Shown here piece after piece: positions 423 through 62,394 of a stretch of 64,000 nucleotides of DNA. The DNA comes from Cliona cf. orientalis (lineage: Eukaryota; Porifera; Demospongiae; Clionaida; Clionaidae), in the NCBI GenBank assembly GCA_963930775.1, contig OZ005704.1, positions 4,216,001 to 4,280,000 on the forward strand. Direction: 5' to 3'. A program made the position numbers and the translations under genes. Position 1 is the stretch's first letter; each line of letters begins with the position of its first letter. The notes under the pieces are model-generated. The model saw nothing but the letters and a program-made list of their open reading frames with translations, was not told the DNA's origin and searched no databases.

Positions 423-641
423 TACTGTATAGCGGGAAATTTTCGAGGGAGAAAACTTTCGCGGATCCGTAGGAAAGGAGCATTTCGCGGAGAAAACTTT
501 CGCGGAACGTTAAAACGTTAAAACTGGTCGCATAATGGGTGTGGCATGCCTAGAATTTCGTGGAGAAAACCTTTGCGGATTTCTGAAAAATCGCGAAATT
601 CGTGAAAGTTTTCTCCCTCGAAAATTTCCCGCTATACGGTA
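423..641. repeat. Inverted-repeat element, TACCGTA-end class, GCGGGAAATTTTC family, copy 1
   Basis: A 219-bp element with terminal inverted repeats of about 40 bp. The left end reads TACTGTATAGCGGGAAA and the right end reads TTTCCCGCTATACGGTA. The inner part repeats the phrase GAGAAAACTTTCGCGG. A second copy lies at 61416-61624. There is no coding capacity, so it is a MITE-type element. Confidence 0.85.
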
Positions 642-644
642 TTT

Positions 645-740
645 ATGCTGCACTGGTACCTCGAATATCGGCCCATGCTCTACCTATGGCCCAATGTAAG
701 GTGCACCGCCCATGGGCCCTCTTTCGCAAGGGTACAAAAC
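645..740 (-). repeat. Terminal fragment of the GGGCCC/GCGAGGGTAC element family
   Basis: It contains CCTCGAATATCGGCCCA followed by CCGCCCATGGGCCCTC and a GCAAGGGTAC end. These are the terminal and subterminal phrases of the larger elements at 61874-62394 and 41868-42973, in rearranged form. Confidence 0.5.
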
Positions 741-874
741 CACGCCCCAATAAGTCTAGGCTTTTGGACAATAATTATCACGGCCGTGTGGTCTGCATAC
801 AGATATGGAATCTGGGAGTCTTGGTGGTGACGCACCGTATAGGAGCGGGGGATGTGAGCTACAGTTATATTTAG

Positions 875-1020
875 GATCGATATGGAAGAGCGAATCCACC
901 ATCTACACAGACCCTGAAGACTAACCCTGCATGCTAACCCTTTACCTGACCCCCTGAGTGTAGTGAGTGTAGTCATACAATTCACGCTTTGTAGATGGTG
1001 GAGTCGCTCTTCGATATTAC
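875..1020. repeat. Small inverted-repeat element just upstream of the first visible exon
   Basis: The left arm, near 879-909, includes GAAGAGCGAATCCACC. The right arm, near 990-1017, is its imperfect reverse complement and includes GGTGGAGTCGCTCTTC. About 80 bp separate the arms. No ORF of note; it ends about 45 bp before the exon at 1064. Confidence 0.6.
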
Positions 1021-1063
1021 AATCCCTTTAGATGGACCGCTTATATTTCACTTTAACACTCAG

Positions 1064-1268
1064 ATGAGCACGATGATAGAGCTGGCAGTGGTGGTGGGAG
1101 AGGAAGTGGAATTAGAGGGGGTAGAGGTCGAGGTAGGCGAGGAGGGAGGTGGATCAGATCCAGGGGTGGTCGTGGACATAGGGAGAAGGGGGACAGTTCG
1201 AGATCACAATTTCAAGATGAAGATGGAGATTTCTCAATGGATGATCGGAACGGCAAGAATATTCGATT
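1064..1268 (+). CDS. NXF1: NXF1 exon: acidic/RGG N-terminal region
   Basis: Acceptor CAG at 1061-1063. The exon starts with the last two bases of a codon and reads EHDDRAG, then a run rich in RGG, GRGRGRR and SRGGRG, then an acidic DEDGDFSMDD stretch. Human NXF1 has the same order in its N-terminal RNA- and adaptor-binding region. The donor GTAAAG leaves phase 2. The longer frame starting at 995 overlaps this exon but is its out-of-phase shadow. Confidence 0.85.
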
Positions 1269-7200: not shown

Positions 7201-10200
7201 AGAGTAACGGGCATATAACAGGCAAGTGACATGCATGTTTCAAGTAAGTGACATGACATGTTTGCTGCATGTTTAAAAAGTGTATGTGCTAAGTATATCA
7301 TATACGTAGGTATTCGTTCTGAATCTCGCAACGTTTCAACGTATGCTGACCTCATCCCACCTAGATCTATATGCGTACATGCATGTGTACACAGCGATTT
7401 CTCAATCGACTGTTTTAATCCTTAATTGTTTTACGCATGTTACATGCATGTCATATAACATGCGTGTAGTATGCATGGAAAACATCCCAAATCCATGCAT
7501 GTTACATGAAACATGCTTGTAGATACAAATGCATATAACATGCGCCAAGGTTAGTGCATGCATGTTACATGCACAAGATTTCGTATAAGGTAGTGTAATT
7601 TTTTGGCTTGAAGTCCAATAATTGTACTGGTCGGCTTCACTGTTATGCAACATCTTACTCAAGGTACATGAGACAGAGAGTGTGGATATGGGCACCGGCA
7701 GTGTTTATGCTCGAATGGCAGTTATGAGTATGACAGTATACATGTATACATGTATATAATTGTATTATAATATTGCAGATTCACCAGCTTGGAGAGAAGC
7801 TGATGTTTTTTGTTAATGATATAAGAGCAGCTAATCAATTGAAGAAGCTTGGTCAAGTTCAGAGCAGGAATGGTCCTCTTACAGTTCTAGTTAAGCCCTG
7901 TCCCCCACCTAAGGGTAGTGGGCAGACTGATAAACGTGATGGTGGAAGCAGATTTGTGTCAGCTTCAAGATACAGGGGAAGAGGACTTGGTAATCGTGAT
8001 GATGATGAGGTAATGGAGGAAGATCCAACAGAAATTGTCAAGGTATAATAATAAGTGTATAGTTATTTTGTGGTGTTCTATTTGAAAGCACGACTACTAT
8101 AAATGCAGATTGAGGAAGGTACTTGCTTGCTCACTTTGGTTTCTCGGGTATTGTACCTACCTTTTAATTTTGTGGTGTTCTATTAGAAAGCATGACCACT
8201 ATAAATGCAGATTGAAGAAGGACTGTATTATTTTTACCTTAATTCTTTCTCACTTTGCTCTCTCTGGTATGTGCAGGTGCACTTACTATGACATGTTGTA
8301 GGTTGATGTCTAATGATGGGAATTTCAGTTTTAATTTATGCCCCCGAATCCATGTAGCATGAATATTTAAACCTACAGGATAATATTTGATGCACAATTT
8401 AAGAATAATAATTTATACCAAGTATAAAAGTGCAATTGAATAAAATTGAAGATGAAGTAGGGATGGCAATGCCAAAAAGTATACAAATATGCAAGATTAA
8501 TATTGCAGGGATAAGATCTCACATCCACTATACATCCCTATGCTTGCTTTTCCCGATAATATCATGCACTTCTGATTCAGTATGTAAAGTGTTGCTATGT
8601 ATAGGTTGTATACCGAGGTGCAGGTCTCTACGCTATTTACACAACCGAGGGCCGAAGGTCCGAGGCTGTGTAAGTCTCGTAGAGACTGAACCGAGGTATA
8701 TAACGGACTTGCACCATGGGCTACATTGGCCTTAACGACTCTTCCTTATGGTAGCAACGACAGCACTGGCTATAAAAGTCGGCTCAAGCAGCACCCAGCA
8801 ACACAGCAAAATAAAAAATTTTGAATTGTCATGACCGTGAAAGCTGTCTAGTATTTAATATACCGTGTTTATGCTAATAAAACGCATGATCTAATTAGCG
8901 CAAGAAAATTTGCGTTCTATGATTTTTCATAGTGTATCTTAATGGAGCGTGTGACGACCTTTACCAGAAAATTGCGCAAAATTAAAAATCGTAATATTTT
9001 TTTAGCTTGCGTTCTATTAGCATAAACACGGTACCTACCATCAGCTCATGGCCAGGCCTTTAAGATGCTTCGAACTTTCGCAGCGATGGCTTTCTTGTTT
9101 GCCAGTGCAGTACTAAACTTCACAAAATGTGCCTTCCTAACCAATATCTTACTCGAGCTCCAAGATTCGCCAACTCAGCATCCAATTACTCCACCCACAT
9201 AATAATGGCAATTAACCTTCAACCTCACCATAGTACATACGCACAGTACTATCACAATGCAATTGCGTAGTAGCAACTAGTACAGTGAGTACAGTCCTAC
9301 TAGAAGTAGTTATCAGACCTCGTATAATTATACAGTGTAAATGCAAGGTGTGATAAGTGATTTACATGTATCAACCTCATGTGGAGAAATCTGATTGGTC
9401 AGAATTTACAACCATGGTACAAACTTTGATATTGACTTTATGCGTGTGAGACATTCATTGGTAGTCAATGTTAATTATCTATTCCTGCAGGTGCCCCATA
9501 TGCATAGCTACTAAAAAAGCAAGCGTAGGGATGTATAGATGTGATACGTTATCCCTACAAAATTAATCTAGTTTGTGTACTTTTTGGCATTGCCATCCCC
9601 ACTTTATCTTCAATTTTATTTTATACTTGTTACTGTTCTTTTTTTATTGCCCTCCGGACAATCCATGATTGTCATTAATTTTCATCAATGCCACCTACAT
9701 GTAGCTGACTAGTCTCGTGGAGCCAGGAGAGGCTGGGCATGAGGTGACTTGATACAGTTTGCCTATTCATCGTAACTGGAACTACAAGTTTGAATTTTTT
9801 TTTCTCGACCAGCTACCTATCCACCTGTTGATATCGACTCCCACAATATAATACAGGGAAGCAGATACCACTGATTCAATATGTTAGTGCTCTCCTTTGA
9901 GTCGGTCACTCTTGACCAAGTCTGTACCAGTTGGCATGTGGGGAGAAATTCATATGGCATGACTCGTGAGGGGAAATACGTTATAGCTGCTGCAGCTGTC
10001 TCCGAAAATTGGCTCAGTGGCTAGGCTAGAGCACCATAGAGGCATTTACCTGGCAACCCGAACACACAGTACCAAGCTTGAATGGCTACTGTCCTAATCC
10101 CGGGCAGTCTTATGGTAGGTAGGATGTCTCCTCTTGCATCACACACTATTAAATTTAAGCATGCATCAATGGGATTTTTTGAGACATACACTGTAGCTGC

Positions 10201-13200
10201 AGCGTCAATCTATTACTCCAAGTGTGCAATTAAACTTGAAAGAAGGCTGTTTAGAACCTGAGCTCCAATTCTGAGCAAATAAACAAATGTGGAGGCCAAT
10301 CAGATGGTGAAACCTATCGACGATTTGCACTCCAGTCTTTCCACAGTTTTACTTCCCATGTAGTGGACTTTTGTGTGTTTGCTGGGACAGCCGATGCCTG
10401 GATGGCCTTCACTTTGTCGTCACCCACGGGATTAGCATATCTTGAAGAGACAGCACTGGATGTCTCACCACATACATCTCCATTGTGCAATTCCAGCTTG
10501 CATGGTTCCATTTGTACATCATCAGGATTGGAATTTAAGACAATAGTTCGTGCAAACAATCCAAGTTGGGCAGATCAGTAGCTTGAAGCAGTGCTTGAGC
10601 ATCGAGCTCTCGCAACTCTGGTGGCAGTATTTCAGGTACAATAAGGCCTTCCATGATACTACATGTAGCTAGTAAACTGCACTGCTTTTTCGTACAAACT
10701 CACAATAGCTAGCCTTTATACACTGACACTAACTCCAATAGTAGACTGTTACTGCCTAGCTATAACTACCAGCATGCCATTTCTGACCTACTGCATCAAA
10801 ATCCATTTAGTCTAGACATCAAAAAGATCAGTATGGTAAGATGTGTACATGGGAGAGTTTCTGTGGTACACTATCTTAAGGGGTCATGTTTCTCTGAAAA
10901 TGCCATGATGTTGCCATTGTTATGCCCTGAAGGGCAGACTAATGAAAATTATATGTATGTGATATTTGTGATCTACTGAATGCCAGGAAATTGCTATGAA
11001 ATATGTACCATACTTGCTGTAATATTATTCAGACATTCTAATAGCCCGAATGGCAAGTTTAAGTAATTTACATGTACAGTGGAACCTGTCTAAAGCGGTC
11101 ACCACTGGGCCAAATATCTGTGGCTGCATTAGAGAGGTGGCTGCAATATGCAAAACATAGCGGGTGTGGCTTGTAGGAGAAGCGAGGCCTAAGTGGTTGC
11201 AAACCTAACTGTGGGCTGCAATAGAGCAGCGTAGGTGCTGGGAATGCCTGCAAGCGCGATTAGCAGGTGGTTTAACAAACCCACAAGTTGTACCTGGCAG
11301 CCAAGTGGGATTTCTCTGGGGGCTGTCCTACAGTAGCCACTATAGGCAAGCTAATTTGTACTAGTGTAAACGCCATGGGACCTGGCTAACTGACCAGTAT
11401 ACGCAATAGGCAGGTGCTGTTTGGGACCTACAGGATGTAGCTGTATTAAGGAGGTGACCGCCTTGTCCAGGTGACCGCTAAGGCAGGTTCCACTGTATTT
11501 TCTTCCTAGTTCACTGAATGTTTTGAATTTCAAGTTTTCTCACCTGCTCTAATCAACTGAATTGCCATGTGGTATGGCATGGCAGGAGCTCGAGGCAATT
11601 CTTCACATTCATTGAAGAGTGGGGCTACCACATCTTGGACAGTATCTAAGAGCGGAAAGGTAACATGGGCATATACATGTGCACAGACCAGGCGATCATT
11701 TTGCGATCGCTCTGATCACGGCAACACTGGAGCTCTGGAGCAGACTATAGTAAACCTATAGTTGGATATTGACTGCTATTTCTTCGTCGCTAGTGCTTTC
11801 TCCATTTTTTTTCACCAGATCCGTTCTATTTATACTTGAACAAGCCATTGGCCAAATTTATTTACTTTCTATTAAACACCGAATGACAATGTTAATAATT
11901 ATTTTGGCCGTTTGGGTAATTAGAGTGAGTACGGTACCCATGAAATTGTTGGTAGCATACATGTATAACATAGCATGATTATGGTGTGAAATTACCATTC
12001 CGATATTATAATATAATCCGCTGAAATTATTTTTATATTTTCATGATATATTATGCGTACATGTATAATATTACCGTATTAATAGCGCCTTAATTTCGTG
12101 GAACTTAAATTTCGCGGATAGCTCTCTACAATGTATGTTTTCGTTGAATAAATTTCGCGGTTCCGGCCTGGTATGGGCGCGCTCTCGTGGGCATTGGAAA
12201 TTTTCGTTGAATAATTTTTGCGGAAGCCGCTGTATTCGCGAAAACAGCGAAAATTAAGTCCCACGAAATTTAAGTGCTATACGGTATTAGGATAAATCAT
12301 GGGATATTCACAGCATGTAAAATACTAACTCAATCAGCTAGATTATGGCATTTTCGTGCCAGCTAGGTCCTGCTTACAAAATCACATAATAATTTTTAAA
12401 GCCTACATGTATGAAATGCAAACTGCACTCACAGATATAAAATTATAGCAACATCATGGCATATGAAAATTCCTGTACTATGCCTTTACTATGCCATGAC
12501 GTGAATTTCATGGCATAATTACATCCCCAGTATAAATTTACTTTTCTATGGTTATTAGGTAATTATGTTGCAATTATGATGTAACCTATGTTGTCATAGC
12601 GCTAAAATTCAGAGCCTTTACAGAACACTTCTGAGACCTGAAAATCCACATTAACTTACGTATATATCCAGCGAATACATTAAAAGCTAAGCTGAGTGCT
12701 ACTTTCTCCGACAAGTAATGCTGGCCGAACTTCACGCGTTATCGTGGCTGACGTAATCCTGTGGATAAATAAAGCTAGGCTTGCGCTATTTATAGCACGC
12801 GTCATGCTATGACTGATCTGAAGTTCAGAAGCTGTACTGTGCTGTCGAGTTCATCTCCTGTGATTGAAGCATCGAAACTCAAAGTCGAGAGTCGATCTTG
12901 GACTCCATCTCTGCGATTGAGGCACCGGCATTGGTGTGTATATTGACGACCTTTTACCACATGCACCATTACTAGCATTAGAACTACATAGCTACTGGGG
13001 ATGTGGTCAAGTTTTTCATTTCACAACAATATCATGGGAATATATCAATTTAATAGAATTTACGTCTACTATATATATATACACATGTATTTCTCTCTTG
13101 GTTTTTATTGTGGCAGTGCTGGTTATTGTGTGTGCTAAATTTTCTCTCCATGCATACACTGTACATGTAGATGGTTTTAGGTCAAAGGTTTGACACGTCC

Positions 13201-25200: not shown

Positions 25201-28200
25201 CCACTGGTTCCCCTCTATTTCAAGTCAAATGTTGCAAGGATGTGGGATGTGTCTGCTACCGCGCATAGCGCGAAGCTTTAGCTAATTTATGGCGTAAAAA
25301 TAAGCAAAACTACCGCTTTAGATACTTTCACTGGTTAAATCTTTTACTTGTACGTGTATTACATGTATGGATGGTGGCTACTCTCAAGGGGGGGGGGGCA
25401 GCCAGCTTCCAAGGGGGTGGGGGACGAGTGACCCCTCCCGCCCCCCCCCCCCCCCCCCCCCAATGAAACCCTGGCTATACAGTGGAACCCCTCTATTCCA
25501 GACACTCTTAATTGTTACAATTTTAAGTGTCTTGATTAAAGAGGTGTCCTCATTTCATGGTAGTTTGCACACTTCTCTATGTAGCTGGGACCATGCATAA
25601 TGTCTTAATTAAGAGAGATGTTATTCATTCCAGGAGTCCTTATGATATGGAGGGTTTCCACTGTTATATACACTGTAGTATAGACTGTTTCCAACTGCCG
25701 TGTGTGTGTCATTTGTTCAAAGTCGAGCCTATCACATTTTTTGTTTGAAGAGGTCGATTGCTTGCATAAGACGTACTTTGTAAGTGACACCAATAGAAAC
25801 AATGGTGTTCTTTCAGTGTCTGCTACTTACAGTGTAACCTAGTCTGTATGACTAAATAATTATAGCATTATGGCCACACCTACATGTACCAACTGCATGA
25901 ACATTCGTGCACGTGAGTGCACATGCATAAAAACGTATGCAAGTGTTTTATCAGAGCATATTTTGCAGTAGATGTTATTAAGATAGATGGGTAAGTGCAT
26001 CACCTCTGAGTAGCCGCCTTTTAGCTGATAAGAATGTCATTTCTGGCACCTTCACTTGTAATTAGGGGCGAGCCTGAGCAAGCCCCGAATTCACGAGAGA
26101 CAGGAAGCGGTTTTGTATGTATATACATATTTGTGGGGTGATCAATTCAGTGAGGAAAGAGTTAAATTTTGAACGCGTAAGGTAATGGTCGTCATGCGCA
26201 TGTGCCCGCACTGCACCATATGTGCACACGATCTTTGAGACAACTCAGGCCTGTACAGTATAGGCAAAGGCATAAAACTGGAATGGTGAGTGCTGTACCA
26301 CTCTGGCAAGGCTTAGATCCACGATTAACACAACATCACTTCCCTGAGCATGAAAGTGACTGTTTGTCCCCTTAGGGTCTATAGCTATACATGTAGGTAC
26401 TTGGACTCGTGATGGTCATATGACATGTAGACTACTAAATATAGTGTAGGTGATCAACGTTTTGGACTATATATTAGCAGTCTGTGATACTTTCACTGTC
26501 GTGGTAGCTTCTCAGGCATAGCTATTGGGGTACAACCCCATATGCCTATATGCCTGTGTGCTTTCAAAGGAATTTTTTATGACTTTTTCGCAAAGGTTCG
26601 CCCCGCACAGATAATTTTTAGTTGTACTATGTTCCTCTGCTACGAAAACCTTATGCGTTATTACATGTACCTACGCTTAATAGCCAAGTACATGTATACT
26701 GAACTAAAAATAGCTATATTAATTCAAGTATGCATGTACATTCATGGTATCATTTAAGGATTGTGGTCAATCACTAGCACAATCATTCACATCACATCCA
26801 GCTCAAAGTGGCACAAATTGAAGTCAAGGGTGTTTGCATTAGGTGTACGTTATCTTCACTGTAGGAAATGGTTTACTAAGGGCTTGTCCATCACAGCCTT
26901 TGGATTCTCAATTCAGCCTGATTTGACTAGAATACAGTACTTAAAATTAATCCTATATATATCCTACCTACTGTAGTATACATTTTTAGATTAAATTGAT
27001 CATTTTAAGCTCAGATTCGATATAATTATATTACTTGAGAAAATGGACCATTTTGCGCTATTTCCGAAGTTTCACTTAAAAATGTAAATGTCTCTGGTAC
27101 CATATCATTGAACTCTGGCATCATTCATTCCAGCCCACCCAATTTCCGATATGGACAGGGCTTGAGCGTGCATCGATCTTATTCAAGAATGCTTTTAATA
27201 TGAAAAACTCAGCCACATCCCCAGTAGCTGCATAGTCCTAATGGGGCATATGGTTCAAGGTTGTCAATATACCATATAGCCGGAAAAGTTGGCGGGGAAT
27301 TAAATTTGGTGGTGTGGCAGTCTATAATTATTACAACCACCAAATTAAAATCCGCCAAAATTTCCTACTCACATATATAGGTATGGTGATCCTGTACCGA
27401 ACCACCAAATTTAAATCTGCCAATATTCTTGCAATAGCGATTTTGGGCTCAACTGCCAAATTTAATTCCCGCCAATATTTCCAGCTTTTCGGTAGTGTGT
27501 GCTCGGTCTACAAGCCACATCAATGCCAGTGCTTCAATCACAGAGATGCAGTCTGAGACTGACTCGCGACCTTGATAATGACAAGTTTCGATACTTCAAT
27601 CATAGGAGATGAACTTGATAGCGCAATACAACTTCTGAACTTCAGATCGCTCATGGCATGGCACAGATACTATATATACATATAGCGCAAGGCTTGCTTT
27701 ATTTATCCACAAGATTACATCAGCCAAGAGAACGCATGAAGTTCATCCAGCAGTATTTGTCAGAGAAAGGAGCACTCAGCTTTTAATCTATTCGCTAGAT
27801 ACATACGTCTATATGCTTACCGATTTGAAGTCTCAGAAAGGCTCCATGGAGGCCCTGAATTTTCGGATAATTCATAGATTACATCATAATTACCTCATAA
27901 CTGCAAAAAAGTGAATTGCTACTGGGGATATAATGAAAAACTTAGAGACTACGTCCAGAGTCCCTCATGAATACGCCGCCATAAATTCGAACTAGGACAC
28001 ATTGACAAACTGCGCATGCTCCATATACACGTACAATATTGGGGCGCGCGGCTTGAGCCGGTTGACCTTCACCTGCCATGTGCTTGACTGAATAGGGAAA
28101 TCCCCCTGCCCTGAAAGCGAGCTCGCTAGAGAAAGCGAACTGAGAGAAACGCCATAATAGTATCATCAGATAGTCCACGATCTCTTCTACGCTAGGTTCG

Positions 28201-46200: not shown

Positions 46201-49200
46201 AACTTTTCTCAACAGACCAAGATGAATTTGGAATGGAGTAAACGGTATGATTGGATTAATGGAACGCAGATTTGGCGTTTCATTCAGAATTTTACCAAAC
46301 CATGTATAAGCAACGATCCTCATTGGAGGAGGAGGGACATATTAGTAGTAATACGTGAAGTGAATATTATGTATATTCTGTGCAACATACTCTTCATACT
46401 CTTTACAATACTTGTTTTATGCCCTCATTGATTAATTGGGACTTGACTCTTGTCAGGTACTGCGTAGTGGGAAAGTCACAAATTGTCCACAAAATTTAGG
46501 CATACTCCACGCATCTATGCTATATGGACATTATGCAGAGAAACAATTTCAAGTAATGCATATATGCATTCTGGGTGTACTAGCATTGCTTGAGCTACAC
46601 ACAGAATTTACAATAAATTCATGAACTTTAGTGAAGCATTGCTGACAAATGAGACGAACATAAGCCTTTGTTGAGCGTTCACCTGAAAGAGCTACTCAAG
46701 AAGAGGCACAAAAGTGTAACCTGAAGTATTCTCTCTCTCTCTCTCTCTCTCTCTACATAGTTGAATCCACCACCCAGTGAAGGCACTTTAATGGAGAGAG
46801 AAGTTTCAGGCAACAGTTTCTAGGAAATAGCCTTGTTCGGCTGCACTGCATGGTTCTAGCATGGTCTATATATATATAGTCTATTTTCTGGGTATGATTT
46901 TTTTGGTTGGGCGAGGGTACATATGGATTTCCAGGAAGCAGGAAACATTTGTGTCTTGTTACGTTCTTGTGGTAAAATGAGTACTACCGCTCGAGCCACA
47001 GATCCATTTTCCACACTTTGACAGCTCAAAATCATATACCGTAGAATCCCGCGATTACGCCCCCCCCTCGCGCATAAGCCCCCCCTGCATTTTTAGCTCA
47101 AGTTCCTGCATAAGTAGTTTTGTCTCGCGTATAAGCCCCCCCTCCCTGACTGTAAAATGGAGTCCATAAGTCAATAAAAACAGTAGCTACAGCTAGCAAA
47201 CTAGCTATTTCTATCATACTACGCCTTACTTTGTCGTTTTACTCGAGTTTTGCCCACCAAACAGCCAGAGAAAGTGCAGAGATCGTGCGCCCACGTGGCA
47301 TTCGACGACTGGTAATGGTTGTCACACGGAAATGTAAGGATCCCGTGTATAAGCCCCCTCCCCACTTTTGCCCAATCCTAGCATGCACAAAGGGGGGAGC
47401 GTATTCTCGGGATTCTACGGTACTAAATTAAGCTTATTGGGCATCAAAAACAATTGAGCAGCAACGAAATTTAACCCTTGTTTAATCTACACATTGTGAA
47501 TCTGCCCAGATCCATTTACCGGTTCATACATACAGAAATTGCCTTTGGTTTATAAGTTTCGCAAACAATAAAGTGCTCTACCTCCCAAGCCATGTGTGCA
47601 AAGTGTCTCTAACTTGGAGGTAGGTTAGTCATGTACCATATTTCCTCGAATAAACGCAGGCCCCGTTTATACGCCGGGGGTATAAGGCGCTGTGTACATA
47701 ATAAACGCCGGGCCTCAAATAAACGCCGGGTCATTACGGAGTGGGCGTGGCGCGAAGCAAACAGGGCCACGTGTACGCTTGTGGGTGTGGCGATATGCTA
47801 GTCTAGTCTCGGTATCTGGCTACATGTACGATGGCGCAGCAAAGAAAAAGGTGCTCGTACGACCTAAGCTTTAAGCTTAAAGCGATCGAGTCGGCCGAAA
47901 AGACATCTAAAGAAGCAGTACCAGCTGCAGTTTAGCATGTGCGAAGAACATAAACATTAAACGCCGGCCCCGATTTAACGCCGGCCCTGTTTTAACGCCG
48001 AGTCAAAGAACTCTGTTAATCAATAAACGCCCGGGCGTTTAATCAAGGAAATACGGTAGTTATCCAAATAAACAGCTAAAATTTTACATATGGTTAGTTT
48101 TCTCAGATGTGATCACGCAACTGCAAAGTAGACAGTAAGTGTATAGGGTATGCGTAGCAGAATCACCATAAACTTGGGTTATTAACCATGTATACGTGCT
48201 CTGAGCAGTAAGGAAATAATATATGTGCTTATAAGGGAGACTTATAGCATTCCCCACTAGTTTTTCAAAGCTTATCAGCATTCAAGGTAAATACTGTCAC
48301 CTATGTAAATATCCACTTCATTTACTTCTGAGGCACAATAACTACCTGTAGTACCGGGAGCATCCAGTAGAAGCCATGTTCTCTCTACCTACAATCTTTG
48401 GCCATAGCCACCCAAAGGAAACTTATAGAGCCCTCATTAGCACTGAGTTCTTCAATCATAGTGTTTAATATCTGTTCTGTTTGTTGTTTAAACCTAGCAG
48501 CATTCAATGCTATTGTGCACTTTTAGTGGCATGTGTTTAACAGAGAGTAGTAAAACCAGGAAAGAAGTATGCACTTATGAAAAATGGTACGCTTATGAGA
48601 AAGGTGCACTTATACACGCCAAGTCTATGGTAACCAGGGTCCCCTTTAGTTACGTTCATAAGGGGTGTATAAGCTATGTACATGTATGTACATTACTTAC
48701 TAGCTGTTAACATCAATGCGATTTGTCTCATGGTTTTTGTTCATTATTTGCAGGTGCTTATCTGATAACAACTGGGATATTGATAAAGCTACAGCTGTGT
48801 TTTCCGTGATGCAGGTACTTGTCTGTTACAATTTATTTTCATGTCTGTAATAATTAAGGCCAGACCAACTTTCTTTGTTGCTATTTGGATTTATAAATCA
48901 AAGTTTACTGTACCATGCACAGTATGTTCAGCGATATCCCTTACCAACTATTTCTGATTCTGTTTACCTCTCCATATGCTATGGCTGGACACCTGCACCG
49001 AGCACTTGCACATATTGAGTTTTAGCATAGGGCAGAAATTTATACGTATGATATCCTGAGTCTGAGAGCGATAGCCTGAGAGTGAGGACAGTTTATGTCG
49101 TCATAAGTCCCTGGCAACCGCCTTTAATTAATTATTATATTGGATACCAAGCAACTACCGTATTTTGCTGCTATTAAGCACATGCACTTATATCTGCACA

Positions 49201-52200
49201 GGAAGCATTTAATAGCAATAATAGCAAGGTGTGCCTAACAAAAAATACCTACATTCAAGTATGCATGCACACCGGTGGGCAAATTTAAGGGGTGTGGCCA
49301 GTCGCTGCACGTTATTACACTCCGACATGCTGGATACGGACCTATTACTGCTTTAATAGCGTATATGCCCTTATAAGTGAAATGCACCTAATAATGAGAA
49401 AATACGGTATCCTAACCTGGCAACCAAATTGTTTTGAACAGAAATGGTCGCCATGTCTATCGCTAACTTTACAGCTGAGCAGGTTTGCCTATTTACTGCC
49501 CGAGCATGTAATCTTGGAACGTGGATGCGTGAAATCTTTTTTTCAAGCAAGCCGACACACTAAGCAGAAAAAAAAATTGTCCAGAAAACCGTCATAGTAC
49601 AGCTACACTGCATTGTAGAGCCACACAGTGCAAGCAGGCTCCCCATACTCCATTTTTGGAAAAATTTGGTGAAGGTCGTCACATTTGTGTGTGCACTAGG
49701 CTCCGTCCCTCACGTAGCGCGTGGGCGGGAAACATTGCAAATGCATGGCTTCCCTATACAAACATGGGAATTAATGCTTCAAAGTGCCATAATTTTTAAT
49801 TCTAAGGTGTAAATTAAAATTCCCCACCATCAAATTTTGTATTCTCACCCATTCTGCGTGCCTGTGTAAAACTTACATTCCCAAGTGTTCCCAGTTCCCC
49901 CACGAATTATTTTTTTCTACTTAGCGTGTAATGTGTAACAAGAAGTGGACACACTAAGCAGAAAAAAAACACAGTCCAGAAACCACCACAGAGTTGAGTT
50001 GGATGCATAGTAGGTAGACCCATGCATGCAATGCAAGCAGACAGCCTGAACTTCAATTTAAAGTGGGTAAAGGTCGTCGCATTTCTGTCCATGCGTAGCC
50101 ATGCCCCTCACGTAGCGCATGGGCAGAAAACATTGCAAATGCATGGCTTCCCTATACAAACGTATGGGGAAAACTTTAAAGTGCCATAACTTCAATTCTA
50201 AGGTATGAATCAAAATTCTGTTCCATCAAATTTCCACGTGCGATCCATTTTGCGTGCTCATGGGAACAGTTTGTCATGAATAGCTTCCCAGACTCTCAAA
50301 CGTTAATTAATTAATTATTTGTATAAATAGTTTGTTTTTTTCTAGTTAGTGTGTATCTACTTAGTGTTTAATTAACGAGGAGACCACACACTAAGCAGAA
50401 AAAAATTGTCTGAACACTACCACATACAGTGCTACAGAGCAAAAGAGTAGATTTATTTCTAACTTTGCATGTACACTTATTTTGACCTACAGTGAATAGA
50501 AATAGCACTTTTAGCTACAGTACTGGTGTGCAAAGCATCAAACAAACATCACTCCGTAACAGAAGGTATGACGAACAATGACGTTGGTCTGGTATCACGT
50601 GCGCTATACATAGCAATGCAAACGATAAAAAATCGCTAGATCAAAGGCTATGGACGAGTTGAGGTAAGTTTCTGAAGGTAGAGAATCGCTCTGGTATGTC
50701 TGCTTCTACACAGTAATACCGTACGTAGCTAACGCGAGCGACTGTCGGACCGCCTAGTGAAGCGGTAGCTGTCAACCCCACAAAAATACTACGGAGCATT
50801 AAAAAGGCTTTTAGGCTGCTTATCGTTACTATCTTACCTCGCTTCAACACTTCAGAAGCGAAGCGCTCCACGCGTTGAACGTTAAGAAGTCGGTTCTCGC
50901 TGCCTCTCGTTCTAAGATTGCCAATGGGCGTGGTCAATGACAACGTCACTATTGTATACATGCGTTGGGTACTACGTCATCAAGGCAGACTTCGACCCGT
51001 CTGGAGCAACCGGCAGGAATATTTGCTTCCAGATTGGGCGTTTCCTGCAAGACATTCGCAGTTCCACATATACACTAGGATTGTTAATGCATAAGGATGC
51101 ATAGAGCACAATATTGACTCTTAACTAAAGCTTTCATGCAAGATTCTGTGCCTAACGTAAATAGACCATATTTTAGGCTAGTTTGGTGAATATCTCCGTG
51201 ATGCTTTGTGGTTAAGACTTCTTATTTGGCACAAAGATGTATCTAGTTGGTGCCTATCTTCAATTCAAATCATGATTCTTAACTATAATATAATCCCGTG
51301 AAACTGCCTAACGTAAGAATTGGAAATTTTTGGCCATTTTTGCATGCTGAAGCCATATTGAAGGGGATATCAGCTTTTCTGCTGCATATGCAGATAGTCC
51401 ATCCATTGACCTAACTGGGTATCAAATCAATTGAAGGTTTAAACACTGCAAAAATCACAGTGGTAAAAATCTACTCTCTTGCTCTGTAGTACTGTAGTTG
51501 AGCTGGATGCATAGTAGAGCCATACAATGCAAGCAAGCAGCCTATACATCAATTTTGTAATGGTCGTTACGTTAATATGCTCGTGTGGGCCCGCCCCTTA
51601 TGTAGCGCGTGGGCGGAAAACATTGCAAATGCATGGCTTCCTATACAAACATATGGGATAACTTCAAAGGGCCGTAACTTTAATTCTAAGGTGTGAATCA
51701 AAATTCTCCAAGGTCAAATCCTTAATTTTGGCCCATTCTGCGTGCTAATATAAAAATTGTGGCATAACCTGCTTTATAGACCCCTAAGACTTTTCTTCTT
51801 CCCTATTCCTTTTTTTCTTTTTTTCAAGGGGACCACACACTAAGCAGAAAAAAATGGTCCGAAAACCACCACACAGTTGAGCTGGATGCATAGTAGAGCC
51901 ATACAATGCAAGCAGGCACCCAAACAGTAATATGCACAATGTTCGGTAAAGGATCGTTAACATACCCCGCGCGCCCGTAAAATTTATTCTGTGTGCCCGT
52001 AAAAATTTTTTGGCAAACATTGTAAGTGAATGGCTTCCTATACAAACTTCAAAGAGCCATAACTTTAATTCTAGGGTGTGAATCAAAAAAGTCTCTTGAT
52101 CAAAGTTCGTAATTTGAGCCATTCTGCGTGCCATATAAAATTTACGGTCCCAACCGCTCCCCAGAGTCCCAATAATTAAAATCTTTTTTTTTCTACTTAG

Positions 52201-55200
52201 TGTGTAACTACTTAACTTAATAATTAATTATTAATTAATTAATTAGTTTGTTAATAAGAAGACTAACCACATCCTAAGTGGAAAAAATTTTGCTCATTAA
52301 ATTGTATGCATATTTACAACACAGTAGGCAGCTAGCCTTGCTTGACCCAAGTCATTGGTCCAAAACCAGCGTCTAGGAATACAGTACTATACAATAATAT
52401 AGACCCTGGCTAAAGCAGAGCTATAAATAATGATTTTTAGTTGTGAGATTTGGTTGGCCATCTCCCAGCTTTGGTCAGACACAAGTGTTTGCCATTTTCT
52501 GCATGCATTAATTTTCACAGTAAATTATTCTTGAACCATGGTGTGCGAATTTAAATTGAAAGAAACAAAATGAAAGGATTATCAAAAAGTACATAAACAA
52601 GCTAGATTAATATTGTAGGGATATTCTGTACATCCCCTATATATGTTCAATTTTTGACAATTATCAGGTTATCTCCCACCGTGATGTTCAGTTTTTCAGG
52701 ATAACACTTGTCCCTTTGCCTGAAAGAACTGAACGATACGATGCAGATATCTACAATCAGACTCGCTTGCTCATTAAAAAAATGCCCAGGTACATAAGCT
52801 ACAATATTCATTTAACCCAGGGCTAGAACAGAAACTTGCCGGGTATACCTGTAAAAGATTTCCAAGCTAATTGCGAGATAAATAGAAACAAACTAGCTGC
52901 CACCTCAGCACTTTAGATAGTCTGTATCACGCATGTGTAATGTTTTGATCTTTGCACTTCATTGTTTGGCTTGGCTCTGCAGTGCTCGATTAGCAAAAAA
53001 GTGGCTAAGCCACTATGGCCATGGCCACCCAAGTTGCTGAATGGTTGGTCAAGTGAGTACGATATTTGTATGGAAAACGGCCAATCGGACTGATGGCCGA
53101 CTATTATTTATAGCTCTGCTTAAGCACTAGTAATACTGTTTTGGGATGGTATAGATTTTGTCTATCTTTCTCTTTTTCACAAGAAGACTAACGTCCCGCA
53201 TCCTTAGTAGGAAAAAGTAGCTTTGAAATAGTGAGAACAACATTTACATTAGGCATTAGGTATTAGGCTGGCCATTCGTAATCGAGATAGAATACCGTAT
53301 TTTCTCGTCATTAGGCGCATCTCGCTTATAAGCGCATATTCGTTATTAAGCGCATGCTATTTTCCTGGCCTAAGTACTCATTGTTAGGCGCATTTTGCGT
53401 ATAAGCGCATATGTGACCCTTGACCTTGATATCTGCCTGCTGCTTTCTTGCTAGCCAAAGGTTCCAGCCGTTTCAGGTTACTCGAAATCACAATGGCTAC
53501 TATCGATTCTCAGGTTCTTCGAGTTATGAGCGCCATTTCGAGCTGGGCGGAATGCAGCAACACGAATGATTGTGTGATCGATCGATTGGCCACGCCCCTA
53601 AGTGATACCGCGCATGTGTTCTTGGATGCAGCTACTCTTTGTTAGGCGCATCTCGCTATATTAGGCGCACTTCGTTATTAAGCGCAGGTTTTCTTCCTGT
53701 GGAGATACAAGCGCATGCAATTAATGGCGGGAGAATACGGTATATTGAATCTAGATCATTGGCTATTGTACTATGTTAATATGGTAAGGGTCATCCATAG
53801 CACTAGTGCATATTGTATGGGAAGAATATAGATTTTGTTTTCACAAAAAGATTAACTGCATCCTAAGTGGACAAAATTTTGCTCATATATTGTTGCTGTA
53901 TGCTTATGTAAGCTAGCTTTGCTCTGTATCTACTACCGTATTCGCTCGATCAGATGCCACTCTCGAGTAGTCGCCGCTCTCGAATAGTCGCCACACCTCC
54001 GGAAATGCTGAACGAATAGTCGCCACTCTCGAAAGTAGCTGCGCTACGCCTACTACCGTACTTAATCTAATACTACGCATGGAAAAAGGTAATTTCAATT
54101 TTGAAAAACGCGCATTTTTCTGGTAAAGGTCGTCAATCGCTCCATATATAAACATTATGAGAATTGATAAAATGCTAATGTATTGCGTTAAATTGGATCA
54201 TGCATTGTATTCGATTAACTACGGTATTCGCGAAACACGCAGCACGTGGACATGCCTCGTGACTCCTCGTCGATGGCAGGTTCAAGAAAAGTAACGATAA
54301 ATACTTAGCAGTCTTCTAGAACAAGTTATAGTCTTCTTCTACATCAGCAAAGCCCACCCTGAGAATTCCCAGCAGCACTCTGGAACCTGCTTTTTATACA
54401 AAATTGGACATCAGTATACTAAAAAGTATTGATTTCAAACTGTACGATGCCAGTATTGCAGATAGTACCCTAGAGAGCTACCAGTCATCTCAAAGAATAT
54501 ATTTGAGATTTTGCGAGGCATGTAGCACAGACCCATTTTCTGCTTCAGAGCACCTTTTAATTCTCTTTGTAGCAGACCAATTCCAAAGAGTGTGTTATAC
54601 CTCCATATCACAATGGGACTGGGACACCCACTAGAAAGGAATACAACCAGTACTAAACATAGGACTCAGGATACCTGGCTACCTATCGCACCAGGCATTT
54701 TGAAAATTAAGGATAATGGCTGGGTTGATGAGCATGCGGCAACTGTAGAGCGGTGGCAAGGGGAATGGCAGAACCGATAATACAAACACTCGGAAAATGG
54801 TCAAGGGAAGCTTATATCGCAATCTTAGAAAGCTAATTATCAGCATTTCAAAACCATTGGTACAAGGCTGAGAAACATCAAGTATTATGTGATACTTTTA
54901 TACTGATTTGATCTTCAAAAATATGACAGTATCTGAGAAAAGGGACACTTCCACCATTCCTAACTTTCGTTTTAAAACGCTTATATCTCAGGAATCATAA
55001 CAGCTATGAACTTCAAACCCGGCATGAACATTCTTCCATCATTCTGCTACACTTGCTACGAATTCTGTATCACTGTAATGTTGTTACTTGTATCACTGCA
55101 TGTATGTATCTTATGCAGTATTACGTAATCATTTATTAGTTGATCACCAGACTTTTGTTCTTGTCATGTATTTATCCATACTCCATACTCCGTATGTGTA

Positions 55201-58200
55201 AACGTATTGTACTTTAATTTGATAATACTAATTATGAGATCACGCCATTGTTCTTGGCCAATTGGCTGCTCTGTTTTGTATTCATTACTTCCGCTGGCTC
55301 AGGTATCACACTCCTTTCATGGCTTGTACACCTTTTATCAGAGTGACCGTGTTAACAGTTGAAGTGATGGAGCTAATAGTACAGCCACAACAGGTGGGAC
55401 AACTACGACTTGGTCACCATCCACACTGCCGTTATTGTTTGTCAAGGAATCAAGTATTCCAACATCAAAGAGTATCAACATAGTGAGCACTGAGGTCCCA
55501 CCAAATCCAGAAAATATAAAATGTCGTGTGGGTCTGCCAGAGTCTGCCTTGCTGGACATCCTTTACAAATCAGTCAACTCAAAAACCGCACAAAATGATG
55601 AGCTCCATTCAGCAGTGGGTGATGTATTTCAATGTTGTGGCACTGAAATAACTAGACTGAATGTGATCTTGGAGCAATGGAAATTTCTGCCAGCAATATA
55701 CTAGTGTCTAAAACTGCAGTCCATAATACATACATACATTACAGATCCAGGAAGTGCATCTGGCGGCACATTCCAGTGCATCCAATTTTCTTACCTGTTC
55801 TATCTAGGCCATCTTTCACTTACAGGATTCCAAATATTATGCTATTTTCTGCTCGTTCAAATCCTATAACCCAAGGACATGCTTTGTGGCGACCACTGTT
55901 GTGCATGCAACATGCAAGAACGTACAAGAAGTGGCACATTTTGCTCCCTTGGATGGATTCCCAAGATTCTAATAGGTCTTGTACTGCTCTACAATTAATA
56001 CTATGAGACTGGAAAAAAGTTTTCTGTCGAGCGGTTCCAGAGTTAAACTGCATCTAAAATCGATTATAGTACAACCATGTGATATTCTCTATAATTTATC
56101 AAAGTTTGTTGAGGGACCTCCTATAAAGAACGGACAAGGCCATGTACGTGAGGGGTGAGGGGTTGGATTTCGGGTAAGATTGTTTGTCAGAGTTAGCCTC
56201 CAGGGTCTGTATGGCAGGGTTAGTTTCAAGGGTTAGTCTCCAGGATTAGTTTCGAGGGTTTGTCTGTGTTTGAACTTTGGCCTTGTCCGTTCTTTATAGG
56301 AGATCCGTTCATTCTTGGCAGACACTCAAAAAATTTCAATTAAATTAATATTTATAGTGAAGGGCAAATAGCGAACTTCTGTACCATGGAAATTTTTAAA
56401 ATTGAAGTCCATGTATGAGGGTGAGCCTTATGAGCTCAAGTACCATATATGTTCTAATATAGGCGCCACCCTAATTTAGGCGCCCTTTGGGACCTGCGCA
56501 ATTTTTTCGGTTCTAATTTAAGGCGCCTTTCCGGACATCAATTATTTTTAGGCGGCGCCTATTTAATTGGAACTTTTTGCCACGTGCAATATGGCAATAC
56601 CTCGATCGGTACCGTACCGTACCGTCGATTGATCTATCGAGCTAGCAGTTTAGATGTCAAACTAAGCTGTCTCCTACATTTATATGGGCACTTACCGACT
56701 GCTTTGATGTCTTTCTGGAGTTAGAGACAATCGTTCTGATGGCTACGGTACCGACAACTCGAGAATGATTCAGTGATCAGAGTGAAATTTCCAAAAAGAA
56801 CTGAAACTAGAACCATATTTTTGTTGTTCTCGCCACTCATATTCACTGCCACTAAATAGGACCGATTGGTGATAGCGCTTGTGCTCTGGCAAAGCTTCCA
56901 GAACCGTTCTAATTGCAGCTCTTAGGCGCCTCCCTAATTTAGGCGCCCTTTGACCTGCTCGTGAATTTTTCGGTTCTAATTGGAGGCGCCTGCACGATCT
57001 GTAATTATTTTTTGGGGGCGCCTATATTAGAAAGTATACGGTAGGCACCACCCTAATTTAGGCGCCCTTTGAGACCTGCACAATTTTTTCGGTTCTAATT
57101 TAAGGCGCCTTTCCGGACATCAATTATTTTTAGGCGGAGCCTATTTAATTGGAACGTATAAATTTGCCATACCGCTACCGTACCATCGATCGATCGATCA
57201 AGCTAGCAGTTTAGATGTCAAACTAAGCTATCTCTTACATAATTTTATATGGGCGCTTACCGACTGCTTTGAAATCTTTCTGGAGTTTAATAGAGACAAT
57301 CGTTCTGATGGCTGTGGTATCGACAACTTGAGAAGGATTCAGCGATCAGAATGAAATTTCCAAAAAGAACTGAAACTAGAACCATATTTTTGTTGTTCTT
57401 GCCACTGTCATATTCAGTGCCACTAAATAGGACCGATTAGTGATAGCGCTTGTGCTTTGGCAAAACTTTCAGAACCATTCTAATTGCAGCTCTTAGGCGC
57501 CCTTTTACCTGCTTGTGAATTTTTCTGGAGGCACCTGCACGATCTGTAATTATTTTTTGGGGGTGCCTATATTAGAAAGTATACGGTATGTACTACCCAT
57601 TGTATAAATCAGCAGAAATGTAAGAGTTCAATTGGGAAGTTAATCAACTAGCACTTTACATTTTCTGCATGAGGCACTCTTTGTGAACACTTGGAGAGTA
57701 GCATGTGCAAAAGCGGGTGAAATGGGCATACTGGTGTTCCTACCTACATAAACAAGTGGGCGGGTAGTGAGAAAAAGCAGAATGTACCAACGCTATAGTA
57801 TATATTACTCCAAGAAGTCAGCTTTGAGCAGTGTGCACACACTGGAATAAAAAAATTAGCACAAAAGTAGCCACAGGTATGGTTAGCAGGTAGTGATAGT
57901 GTAACTGGGCACCATTGCACCTTAGATAAGTGGTCTAGATAATTATAGTACGTATATGAGCTAGAGCTGGAAAGTGCAGCTGGTAAAAAATGTCAGAACT
58001 TGTGCTTGTCAACACCATAGGCATACCTGCATACCAGCAAGTTGCTTATAGCATTACAGCATTGGCGGGACAGCAGACTTCACTGGTAGTAGCAAATGGT
58101 ACTTCCACATAAACCATCAAGCTGAAAGCAGCAATGATATTGCTCAAAAGCAACTATCATTGAAGTTCTTGTACATCTGTGTTGGGTATGGTGAATATTA

Positions 58201-59244: not shown

Positions 59245-59612
59245 CACACTAAGCAGAAAAAAATGGTCCGAAAACCACCACACAGTCGAGCTGGACGCAT
59301 AGTAGAGCCATACAATGTAAGCAGGCATCCAAATAGCACTATGCAGTGTTCGGTAAAGGGTCGTCAACTTACCCCGCGCGCCCGTAATTTTTTTATGGGC
59401 AAACATTGCAAATGCATGGCTTCCTATGCCAATATAAAGGGTGCTGTATCTTGGTACCGAAAGTGAAAATTAAAATTCCGGCTTTAACATCTTTCTAATT
59501 TTGACTCATTCTGTGTGCCCATATAAAAATTATGGCCTGAAGTGGTCCCAGAAGTCTCAAACATTAGATTGTTTAAATTATTTTTTTTTCTACTTAGTGT
59601 TTAATTTTTTTT
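59245..59612. repeat. ACACACTAAGCAGAAAAA element, copy 4
   Basis: Starts ACACACTAAGCAGAAAAAAA and ends TTTTTTTTCTACTTAGTGTT. Shares AACTTACCCCGCGCGCCCGT with copies 3 and 5. Confidence 0.85.
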
Positions 59613-59631
59613 TTTTTTTTTCAAGGGGACC

Positions 59632-59983
59632 ACACACTAAGCAGAAAAAAATGGTCCTAAAGCCACCACACAGCCAAGCTGGATACATAGTAGAGTCATA
59701 CAATGCAAGCAGGCACCCAAACAGCAATATTCAGTGTTTGGTAAAGGGTCGTCAACGTACCCCGCGCGCCCATAAAATTCTTTGGCAAACATTGCAAGTG
59801 AATGGCTTCCTATGCAAACTTCAAAGAGCAAAAACTTTAATTCTAGGGCATGAATCAAAAACTCTCGATCAAAGTTCGTAATTTGAGCCATTCTGCATGC
59901 CTATATAAAACTTACGGTCCCAACTGCTCCCCAGAGTAACAATACTTAAAATCTTTTTTTTTTTTCTACTTAGTGTGTAACTA
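59632..59983. repeat. ACACACTAAGCAGAAAAA element, copy 5
   Basis: Starts ACACACTAAGCAGAAAAAAA and ends TTTTTTTCTACTTAGTGTGT. Adjacent to copy 4 across a T-rich TTTCAAGGGGACC junction. Confidence 0.85.
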
Positions 59984-60189
59984 TAACAATTCTTGTACAA
60001 TACACTGTACAACGGATGGCATGAATAGCCGATGGCTAATACAAGCATGCATCCTGCTATGAGTAACTACTCTGTGCTTACGAGTCGCTTAGACGCCTAT
60101 ATCTTGAGATGTGGCGATTTTTGTGCTAACAACGACGACACGACCGATTACTTTACCCCTTGCGCATGCGCGGGGCAGTAAAATACTTG

Positions 60190-60420
60190 ACCATATCCCC
60201 AGTAGCTGCATAGTAATGGTGCATGTGGTAAGAGATCGTCAATATTGTGTACTATGCATCTACCAGAGATGGAGTCTGAGACATTCAATCACAGAAAAAC
60301 TCAACAGTGCAGATTAGTTGTGGCATGGCACACAAACCGGGCTACTTAAAGGTATTCACTGGATACACGCACAAGATTTAGGGTCCTCAATTTTCTGCTA
60401 GTTACCTCAGATTACACCAT
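60190..60420 (-). repeat. Partial copy of the 12456/27480 repeat
   Basis: TATCCCCAGTAGCTGCATAG, GAGATGGAGTCTGAGACATT and GGCATGGCAC resemble phrases of 27210-27670. Confidence 0.45.
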
Positions 60421-61415
60421 AGGTTTCATATATTGGACTGGTATAGGTCGTCACCCTTATTTGTGCTCTCCCTAGTGTAACTTGTAATTTTTTTCTTATA
60501 ATTAGAATGTTTCCAGAGTATTGTGAACAAGTGTGAATTAGCTAGCTTGAACGTCCATGGTAGCAAAGAAGTACTCAGATATCCAAGTTTCAGTCTACTA
60601 GCTGTCACGCGTGGTGTTTCTAATCATTGCCCATCCTATCGTCTGTCAACATCCAGTCCCAGGGTTTGGCCAATCCAAGTGCGCGCCCACGCTCTTCAAC
60701 ATCTTGTAGGCGGGGACCAATGAGTTGTACAGTCAATGGCGCCTTCCCGCCACAGAGTCAAAAGTTTGTACGGCTGATTAGACTAGTGGGAATGAAGCGC
60801 CAGAACTCGGGGGCGTGGCCCACCCCAAAATCGTACAAACTCTCCACCTGTATAATAATGTTACGTGCGTTTGCTAGCCCTAATCGCCAGCTGGTTGAGG
60901 GCCACGTGACTGATCACTGATGGAGATTCGTGCATCGATCTACCGAGCACGCCTGGCAGTTAAAGTGAAGATCTAGTATACGGACTCGCGTTGTCAAAAA
61001 TCGCGCACGCCATCGAAGGACAAGGCAAGGACTTCGCGCTGCTGCTTGTCGACCTACTAAATGATCTAGCCAGACATAGACATCGCTACTCTGGCAGCTG
61101 AAGACCTTTCTTGGATCTGCTACCGCCAACTACAACCGTTGGTTGGTTACATCACATCTCAACGAAGCGGTTTTGGTTCTTGCATCGACGATATGCTCGC
61201 ACTGGGTGTTGGGGACGACGATGAAAGGATAGTATTGCGAGACCACCTCCCTGAGAGTAGCGGACGTAACCACGTTCATGGTGGGAGCAGTTTACTGTAT
61301 CTAGAAATACAAATGTGGCACTCAGACATATGCTGTATCTGGCAATCATTGCTATTTGTAAAGCGCCTGACGACCTTTACCAACTAAATCCCTACTTCCA
61401 TCGTGTGTACAAAAT
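60421..61415. other. Intergenic sequence with unassigned frames
   Basis: The + frame at 61139-61387 (DDMLALGVGDDDERIVLRDH) has coding-like composition but no recognised family. GTTTGTACGGCTGATTA and AAATCGTACAAAC near 60765 and 60830 are weak inverted repeats. Confidence 0.3.
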
Positions 61416-61624
61416 TACCGTATAGCGGGAAATTTTCGAGGGAGAAAACTTTCGCGGATCGGTAGGAAAAGAGCATTTCGCGGAGAAAACTCGCGGAATG
61501 CAAAAACTGATCGGATAATGGGTGTGGCATGCCTAGAATTTCGTGGAGAAAAATTTCGCGGATGGCTGAAAAATCGCGAAATTCGTGAAAGTTTTCTCCC
61601 TCGAAAGTTTCCCGCTATACGGTA
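61416..61624. repeat. GCGGGAAATTTTC family, copy 2
   Basis: A 209-bp element. It starts TACCGTATAGCGGGAAATTT and ends AAGTTTCCCGCTATACGGTA. Same family as 423-641. Confidence 0.92.
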
Positions 61625-61873
61625 ATCACCGCCGATTCTTCAAGTTCAACTATGAACATCGAACTAAACTGGGGGTCCCCATATTCACGGAAGGGGACCC
61701 GGGGGTCACCAAATTTCATCGCACGCAATGTTTTATGCACACACACGCAATCTTTTTGGGTGACCTGCAATAATTATTTGAACGCAAACTTTTTAAAATC
61801 GCGTAATTTTTACCCGCAGCGCGTTTAAAGTGACGACCATTTCCAAATATTCGAAAACGGCCTGAAATCCTAT

Positions 61874-62394
61874 TACCGTACCCTCGCGAAAGAGGGCCCA
61901 TGGGCGGTGCATCTTACATTAGGCAAGATTCGGGGGTGGGCCGATATTCGAGGTATCAGTATCGCATTTATACGCGAAAGAGCGCTCAGGTAAGTTACCC
62001 ACGCCAGCTTCATAATATGAATAGTAGCATAGGCTACTATTGATTTCAGCCTTATTCAAGCACGGTTACCAATTCAGAGCAAGAGCAGCCGCGATTCTTC
62101 ACCGTGTGTTGTTGAGTGCAGCTCTATTAAGTGGGCGTGGCTACGATCGTTAGCCGTGTGTGTTAGTTATATTTCTGCTGAAACGTGGAGTAAAGCTAGC
62201 TAGGCTTAGTTTTACAGCTGTTTAGCACGTTACTTATCGATTTACGAAGTTCAGTACTCATAAACCAGCCATTTGAGCTGCGTTTTCAAGGGCAGCTACA
62301 CATGGGCGCATATTCGACCTTAACAGGAAATTGAGCCCAAAGTGGGGGGTGGGCGGACATTCCGTAGTGGGCCCTCATTCACGAGGGTACGGTA
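61874..62394. repeat. TACCGTA-end element, CCCTCGCGAAAGAGGGCCC family
   Basis: A 521-bp element. It starts TACCGTACCCTCGCGAAAGA and ends TTCACGAGGGTACGGTA. GGGCCGATATTCGAGG lies near the left end. The long copy is at 41868-42973. Confidence 0.88.

Follow-up and report, generated by a model that had tools for sequence, protein, structure and literature searches.

Why do many otherwise different short inverted repeats in one stretch of a sponge genome begin and end with the same few bases, and what moves them? The stretch, here called the window, is 64,000 nucleotides of the Cliona cf. orientalis assembly GCA_963930775.1 (contig OZ005704.1, positions 4,216,001 to 4,280,000), in which families of inverted-repeat elements begin with TACCGTA and end with TACGGTA, or with close variants of these. 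The original prediction, made from the letters of the window, proposed that CCGTA is the tip common to these families if the outer TA is a target duplication; it held that the arms next to the tip differ completely, and suggested one transposase group that recognizes the minimal tip. We find that the CCGTA-tip elements are a real and abundant group of miniature inverted-repeat transposable elements (MITEs), and that they probably derive from a diversified set of pogo-like transposons (IS630-Tc1-mariner, with a DDE_1 transposase). Below, positions are those of the window unless a contig (C4, C8 and so on) is given.

Abundance of CCGTA-tip elements

At each of the 12 element starts listed originally, a left tip is paired with a right tip in inverted orientation. 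The left tips read TACCGTA in seven elements, TACCATA in three, and TACTGTA and TACCGTG in one each. Ten of the 12 right ends are exactly TACGGTA, and two are variants, CACGGTA at 9033 and TTCGGTA at 27494. We found four further elements (35548-36203, 36328-36508, 54054-54226 and 61416-61624), which brings the total to 16 elements and 5,316 bases, or 8.3% of the window (Table 1). Three arm types are visible among them: class A, class B and a third type. In keeping with MITEs, the elements are 173-656 bp long, and the single open reading frame (ORF) in the window of at least 150 amino acids (aa), the length from which frames were considered, lies outside them (43254-44339).

The sequence TACCGTA occurs 36 times in the window compared to 4.87 times expected, with a maximum of 10 in 100 shuffles. 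We also counted inverted pairs, defined as tips with at most one mismatch in CCGTA and inverted arms, 70-1200 bases apart and above an arm-score threshold. There were 14 such pairs in the window and none in each of 40 dinucleotide shuffles, and 59 permuted tips, composed of TA and the same letters as CCGTA and sought in the real window, gave a mean of 0.8 pairs and a maximum of 5. Going by a list of elements made with the same threshold, the 14 pairs take in a TACAGTA element at 42208-42822, which we set apart, and the elements at 35548, 49156 and 53293 fall below the threshold. Tip enrichment and pairing together bear out CCGTA as the common tip.

The arms are also found throughout the genome (216.8 Mb assembly, 149 contigs). 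The arm TACCGTATAGCGGGAAATTTTCG, of the 423 family, has 1767 + 1742 = 3,509 places at up to two mismatches, the 43-base arm of the 27270 family has 459 + 527 = 986 places at up to three mismatches, and TACCGTANNNNCTCGAATAANNGC has 46 exact places; for each of these the reversed-pattern control returned 0. Because these places are element ends, the numbers of elements should be roughly half of the counts. Outside this genome, no matches were found in viral contigs or in bacterial and archaeal genomes. We recognized no description of CCGTA-tip elements in the literature searched, a search that did not extend to Repbase and Dfam.

A pogo-like gene in an element with the same end

The original prediction called for a full-length copy with a transposase. 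This was found in part: a pogo-like (DDE_1) gene does lie in an element that starts with the tip, of which only the 5' end was seen. A DDE_1 match at C4:4296224-4296763 on the minus strand (E 1.8e-12, 53.9 bits, above the cut-off) falls in a 510-codon open frame with its ATG at 4297627, and the element start, TACCGTATAGCCGGAAAATTTGGCGGGGAATTAAATTTGGCGG, lies 223 bases before this ATG. Tip and arm together read TACCGTATAGCCGGAAAATTTGGCGGGG, and the gene begins 223 bp inside this end. The arm that starts the element, TACCGTATAGCCGG..., matches the window element 27270-27494, and the first ~95 bases of the C4 element align with this MITE, at the 5' end only. Of the C4 protein, the first 96 residues were read as letters.

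Two further copies show where this element starts. A 671-base query from C4, including 160 bases of flank, matched C8:657582-658092 and C18:2295118-2295628 at query positions 161-671, and both copies were scored at 100%. Query position 161 corresponds to the T that opens TACCGTA, and the C4 flank (1-160) is unmatched in the C8 and C18 copies. As both copies start at the first base of the tip without the C4 flank, the 5' boundary of the pogo-like element is established. The C8 copy has a 510-codon frame as well and the C18 copy, with frames of 330 and 195 codons, may be broken. Among the matches of the query that cover its flank alone, 9 of 34 run to position 162, through the TA (counted by eye).

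A tip-bearing MITE could also adjoin a pogo-like gene by chance, and with 16 elements in 64 kb the tip-bearing ends are dense enough for one of them to fall a few hundred bases from a gene at random. However, the C8 and C18 copies both begin at the same base and enter the same gene with the C4 flank unshared, and there is no right end between the tip and the ATG in the C4 element; we consider a chance neighbour here hardly credible. Since the 27270 family of MITEs can be traced to a pogo-like transposase gene in an element with the same start, an enzyme of this kind probably moves the short elements.

The elements differ from the pogo superfamily in their CCGTA tip, the usual pogo tip being CAGT-like, and in that the N-terminal 96 residues of the C4 protein have no Pfam match at E ≤ 1. 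The likenesses are the DDE_1 transposase, the TA duplication (see below) and the size of the C4 gene, which lies within the 300-977 residues given for pogo transposases (PMC7386202). The same paper gives TA as the general duplication of the superfamily (Tigger, pogoR, Passer, Fot, Lemi and Mover), with TAA or TAAA in Fot and Fot-like elements (PMC7386202).

A DNA-binding domain of the HTH/CENP-B type would be expected in the N-terminal part of a pogo transposase; the Pfam search for it covered the first 96 residues. No viral relative of this N-terminus was found. It has 31 matches in the genome at 32-100% identity, several of which adjoin DDE_1 matches (C10:2934088, C1:34268078, C5:7070584, C1:23794375, C1:25253526 and C6:5313790). 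In general, transposase matches are frequent in this genome, with at least 150 for DDE_1 and at least 150 for DDE_3 (548 first-look candidates).

Insertion at TA

To look for empty sites, we took the two flanks of each of 21 elements, joined them with one TA in between and used the result as a query; 40 of 5,058 candidates were scored. Matches across the joined junction were obtained for 4 of the 21 elements; among the candidates scored, the other 17 had no usable match. For 8861-9033, 34 places match across the junction, and all 17 of the loci fetched are uninterrupted and have two bases at the site of the element, TA in 6 and CA in 11. For 54054-54226, both of the empty copies fetched (L089 and L090) read CTAC-TA-TT. 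Because the two-base site is single in the empty loci, TA is the duplication and CCGTA the element's own tip at 8861 and 54054, and the proposal that the outer TA is a target duplication therefore holds at the two cleanly readable sites, both of class A. Further joined-flank matches, neither of them informative, were a gapped one for 27270 and, for 56441, the element's own place. The element at L002 sits in a TA run, so that a TA duplication is unreadable there.

Longer duplications were sought in the flanks of 24 elements, a comparison in which only bases beyond TA are informative, as TA was built into the element search. None of the 24 agree over three or more bases beyond TA, and the extra agreement is about what chance would give, with one base in 5 to 7 of 24 and two bases in 0 to 1 of 24.

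The repeat that hosts 8861-9033 (L069-L073, L076 and L078-L088) is itself present in at least 34 places, with 83-89% identity to the joined flanks.

Arm architecture

The proposal that the arms differ completely is not borne out: a weak consensus, locked in phase to the tip, and a periodicity of 15-18 bp run through 13 families. Like elements were merged into these 13 families, and their arms were compared in gap-free alignments anchored on the tip, over positions 8-33. The mean pairwise identity was 0.308 for the left arms and 0.321 for the right arms. Rotated arms gave 0.249 (sd 0.010) on the left and 0.252 (sd 0.010) on the right, and none of 2000 rotations reached either of the real values. 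In a set of 16 arms picked by hand the identity was 0.328. Self-similarity of the arms peaks at lags of 15-18 bases, with z of 2.6-4.0 on the left and 2.6-4.3 on the right when one arm was taken per family, and 4.6-6.6 over all 32 arms.

Part of this pattern can be seen in the motif TA[AGT][GA]CGC, which was picked after viewing the arms. Of the 32 arms, five have it at a distance of 20 bases from the tip (33641L, 34076R, 53293L, 56441L and 57043R) and two at 18 bases (47634L and 48058R), and further copies occur in some arms at 35-37 and 55 bases. The motif is ~15 times denser inside the elements than outside (8.1 vs 0.53 per kb), which is partly so by construction, and it is absent from the 8861 and 54054 families.

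ISL2EU-type elements as a possible mover

A different source of the CCGTA elements could be ISL2EU or another member of the PHIS group (PIF/Harbinger-ISL2EU-Spy). ISL2EU-type copies, in which DDE_Tnp_4 adjoins convergent YqaJ genes, are plentiful in the genome, and one of their ends (ATGGACCGTATTC...TTCTAAATAACGCACGCC) resembles the class A arms. We examined 40 merged regions of this type and rejected them as the mover, as their readable ends point to RGACC with AT and TACCGTA is the outer end in 0 of 40 among the best inverted repeats listed for them. Five regions have a readable outer end of the form (A/T)AT-RGACC, a sixth reads TATACATGG, and the rest have no resolved end. Read as AT duplications, the (A/T)AT-RGACC ends fit the AT target duplications published for ISL2EU (PMC4482050). 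In contrast, the sites at 8861 and 54054 are unreadable as AT, and since an AT duplication does not fit them, ISL2EU is disfavoured. Therefore, although abundance in the same genome and one end like the class A arms are points of likeness, the AT duplication, the RGACC ends and the pairing of DDE_Tnp_4 with YqaJ set ISL2EU apart, and we regard descent from ISL2EU or other PHIS elements as very improbable.

Among these ISL2EU-type elements, the pairs L027/L043, L037/L064, L030/L042, L024/L057, L033/L061 and L034/L041 have inverted repeats of ~200-430 bases, and repeats of this length suggest recent activity. The end at L041/L034 (C8:4773000-4777239), which reads AT followed by GGACCGTATTCATAATTATTGTTCTAAATAACGCAC, resembles the class A arms, perhaps by chance or convergence.

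One pogo-like group or several lineages

Several observations weigh against a pogo-like origin of the whole group. When the 5' sides of five DDE_1 genes were read, one had the tip; the other four have none in the 451-551 bases read, and their frames are of 866, 584 and 654 codons (L091-L093) and 485 codons (L094, where the stretch read reaches no more than 31 bases beyond the ATG on the upstream side). The pogo-like element is delimited at its 5' end only, and an inverted repeat at its 3' end would be predicted. The transposase tie is that of the 27270 family, which arm resemblance extends to class B but not to class A or the third type. The clean empty sites are those of class A and the transposase link is that of class B, so that no family has both proofs, and the TA duplication expected of pogo comes from class A MITEs rather than from the partner element's own site. 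At the class B empty site (L008, of the 423 family), the alignment is broken by gaps where the flanks meet and is thus not clean. Finally, a 27270-type tip (C2:12892951-12892993, minus strand) lies ~690 bases upstream of a DDE_3 (Tc1/mariner) gene (C2:12891883-12892305, with a 333-codon frame) in a fitting orientation. We tentatively take this tip for a chance neighbour, of which one or a few would be expected. A second tip near a DDE_3 gene, at C1:7939605 on the minus strand, is the wrong way round. Nearness of tips and transposase genes was judged by eye, using 100 listed places each of the 3,509 and the 986 and the exact places of TACCGTANNNNCTCGAATAANNGC.

A rival reading is that the tip is convergent, or older than the group: several TA-inserting lineages (Tc1/mariner proper and various pogo lineages) would each have moved some of the families, with class B alone belonging to the pogo-like group described here. 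The numbers of DDE_3 and DDE_1 matches, the existence of three arm types with a transposase link for class B alone, and the tip upstream of the C2 gene all go in this direction. However, the position-locked similarity of the arms spans all 13 families, and none of the 59 permuted tips gives more than 5 pairs, and we consider separate lineages unlikely.

The reading that we favour is the diversified pogo-like group. Its elements would follow the plan [TA]CCGTA, subterminal arm, filler, arm, TACGG[TA], with insertion at TA and duplication of the TA. The MITEs would be copies with internal deletions that keep the tip and the arm and are moved in trans by the transposase of complete copies. The N-terminal region of the transposase may bind the subterminal arm motifs, with the repeated arm motif as its binding site, and the invariable CCGTA tip, which borders the duplicated TA, may be where it cuts. 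Divergence of the N-terminus may track that of the arms, and class A and the third arm type may be served by the same pogo-like group. The original prediction of one transposase group that recognizes a minimal tip is supported in part: a transposase-bearing element that starts with the tip exists, but the tip is not the sole part shared. A single transposase group behind the families is likely for class B and possible for the rest.

A broader idea, which we put forward tentatively and which may well prove wrong, is that of a single pogo-like radiation with an invariant CCGTA cut site and a phase-locked array of binding motifs, spaced by 16-18 bp and starting ~18-20 bp in, whose letters change with a fast-diverging N-terminal domain. 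If this is true, the genome would hold a great many matched pairs of transposase and arm specificity, all built on the same fixed frame.

Stowaway and other Tc1/mariner-derived MITEs are short, duplicate TA and form many families with a short conserved tip, and the CCGTA elements are like them in all of these respects. They differ in the tip, which is for example CTCCC for DD39D/GT (PMC8472432), and in that the transposase linked here is DDE_1 and not DDE_3. In bees, the five outermost bases of the terminal inverted repeat (TIR) characterize certain Tc1/mariner subfamilies, so that a group tip of five bases has a precedent (PMC8472432). One of the commonest repeat types seen in the window now has a link to a transposase, a known target duplication and a described architecture of its arms. 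The 31 divergent N-terminus matches and the 13 arm families with a common tip and spacing offer a natural test of co-divergence between transposase and ends; aside from this, the CCGTA elements are a known kind of element with ordinary MITE biology.

Features of the window

Table 1 Tip-bearing elements in the window, with the observations that define them.
Feature	Position	Strand	Observation
TIR element, class B arm (TAGCGGGAAATTTTCG...)	423..641		same family as 61416-61624
TIR element, class A arm, TA target duplication	8861..9033		two-base site once in 17/17 empty loci
TIR element, class B arm	12072..12286		tip and arm pairing
TIR element, class B	27270..27494		first ~95 bp align with 5' end of pogo-like element elsewhere in genome
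TIR element, class A	33641..34076		right-arm motifs 20, 37, 55 and 94 from tip
TIR element, class B-like arm (ATATTTCG)	34146..34335		tip and arm pairing
TIR element, class B-like, new	35548..36203		arm score 11.5, below pair-count threshold
Second copy of 34146 family, inverted, new	36328..36508		arm pairing
TIR element, class A-like arm	47037..47422		tip and arm pairing
TIR element, class A	47634..48058		left-arm motifs 18, 35, 69 and 87 from tip
TIR element, class A, degraded arms	49156..49409		weak arm match, score 5.5; probably 53293-53742 family
TIR element, class A	53293..53742		weak arm match, score 8.0; left-arm motifs 20, 37, 55 and 93 from tip
Left part of further tip-bearing repeat (TACCGTATTCGCTCGATCAGATGCC...)	53934..54053	+	target of insertion at 54054
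TIR element, class A, nested insertion, new	54054..54226		single TA in both empty copies (L089, L090)
TIR element, class A	56441..57043		same right end again at 57588, outline uncertain
Second copy of 423 family, new	61416..61624		arm match
TIR element, third arm type (CCCTCGCGAAAGAGGGCCC)	61874..62394		related single end at 42973

Other repeats were seen beside these elements. Single ends of the form TAC(C/T)GTA...CTCTAATTA(C/T)C, for which no partner was found, occur at 11936 (minus strand), 39374 (plus) and 29761 (minus) and represent a further tip family. The element at 42208-42822 has TACAGTA...TACTGTA ends and arms GTGGCCAATAAAAGTTAACGTTC; it belongs to another TA-flanked family and lies between matches to parts of 61874-62394. 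A large imperfect inverted repeat at 30319-31566 has 263-base arms that are 92% complementary, with shorter repeats nested in it.

An ORF of 371 aa at 43257-44369 on the minus strand matches DUF3504 (E 2.2e-33) and phage integrase (7.2e-9). From these matches its product is predicted to be a tyrosine recombinase, possibly Crypton-like, and by eye a similar frame can be seen at L001:2196-2960.

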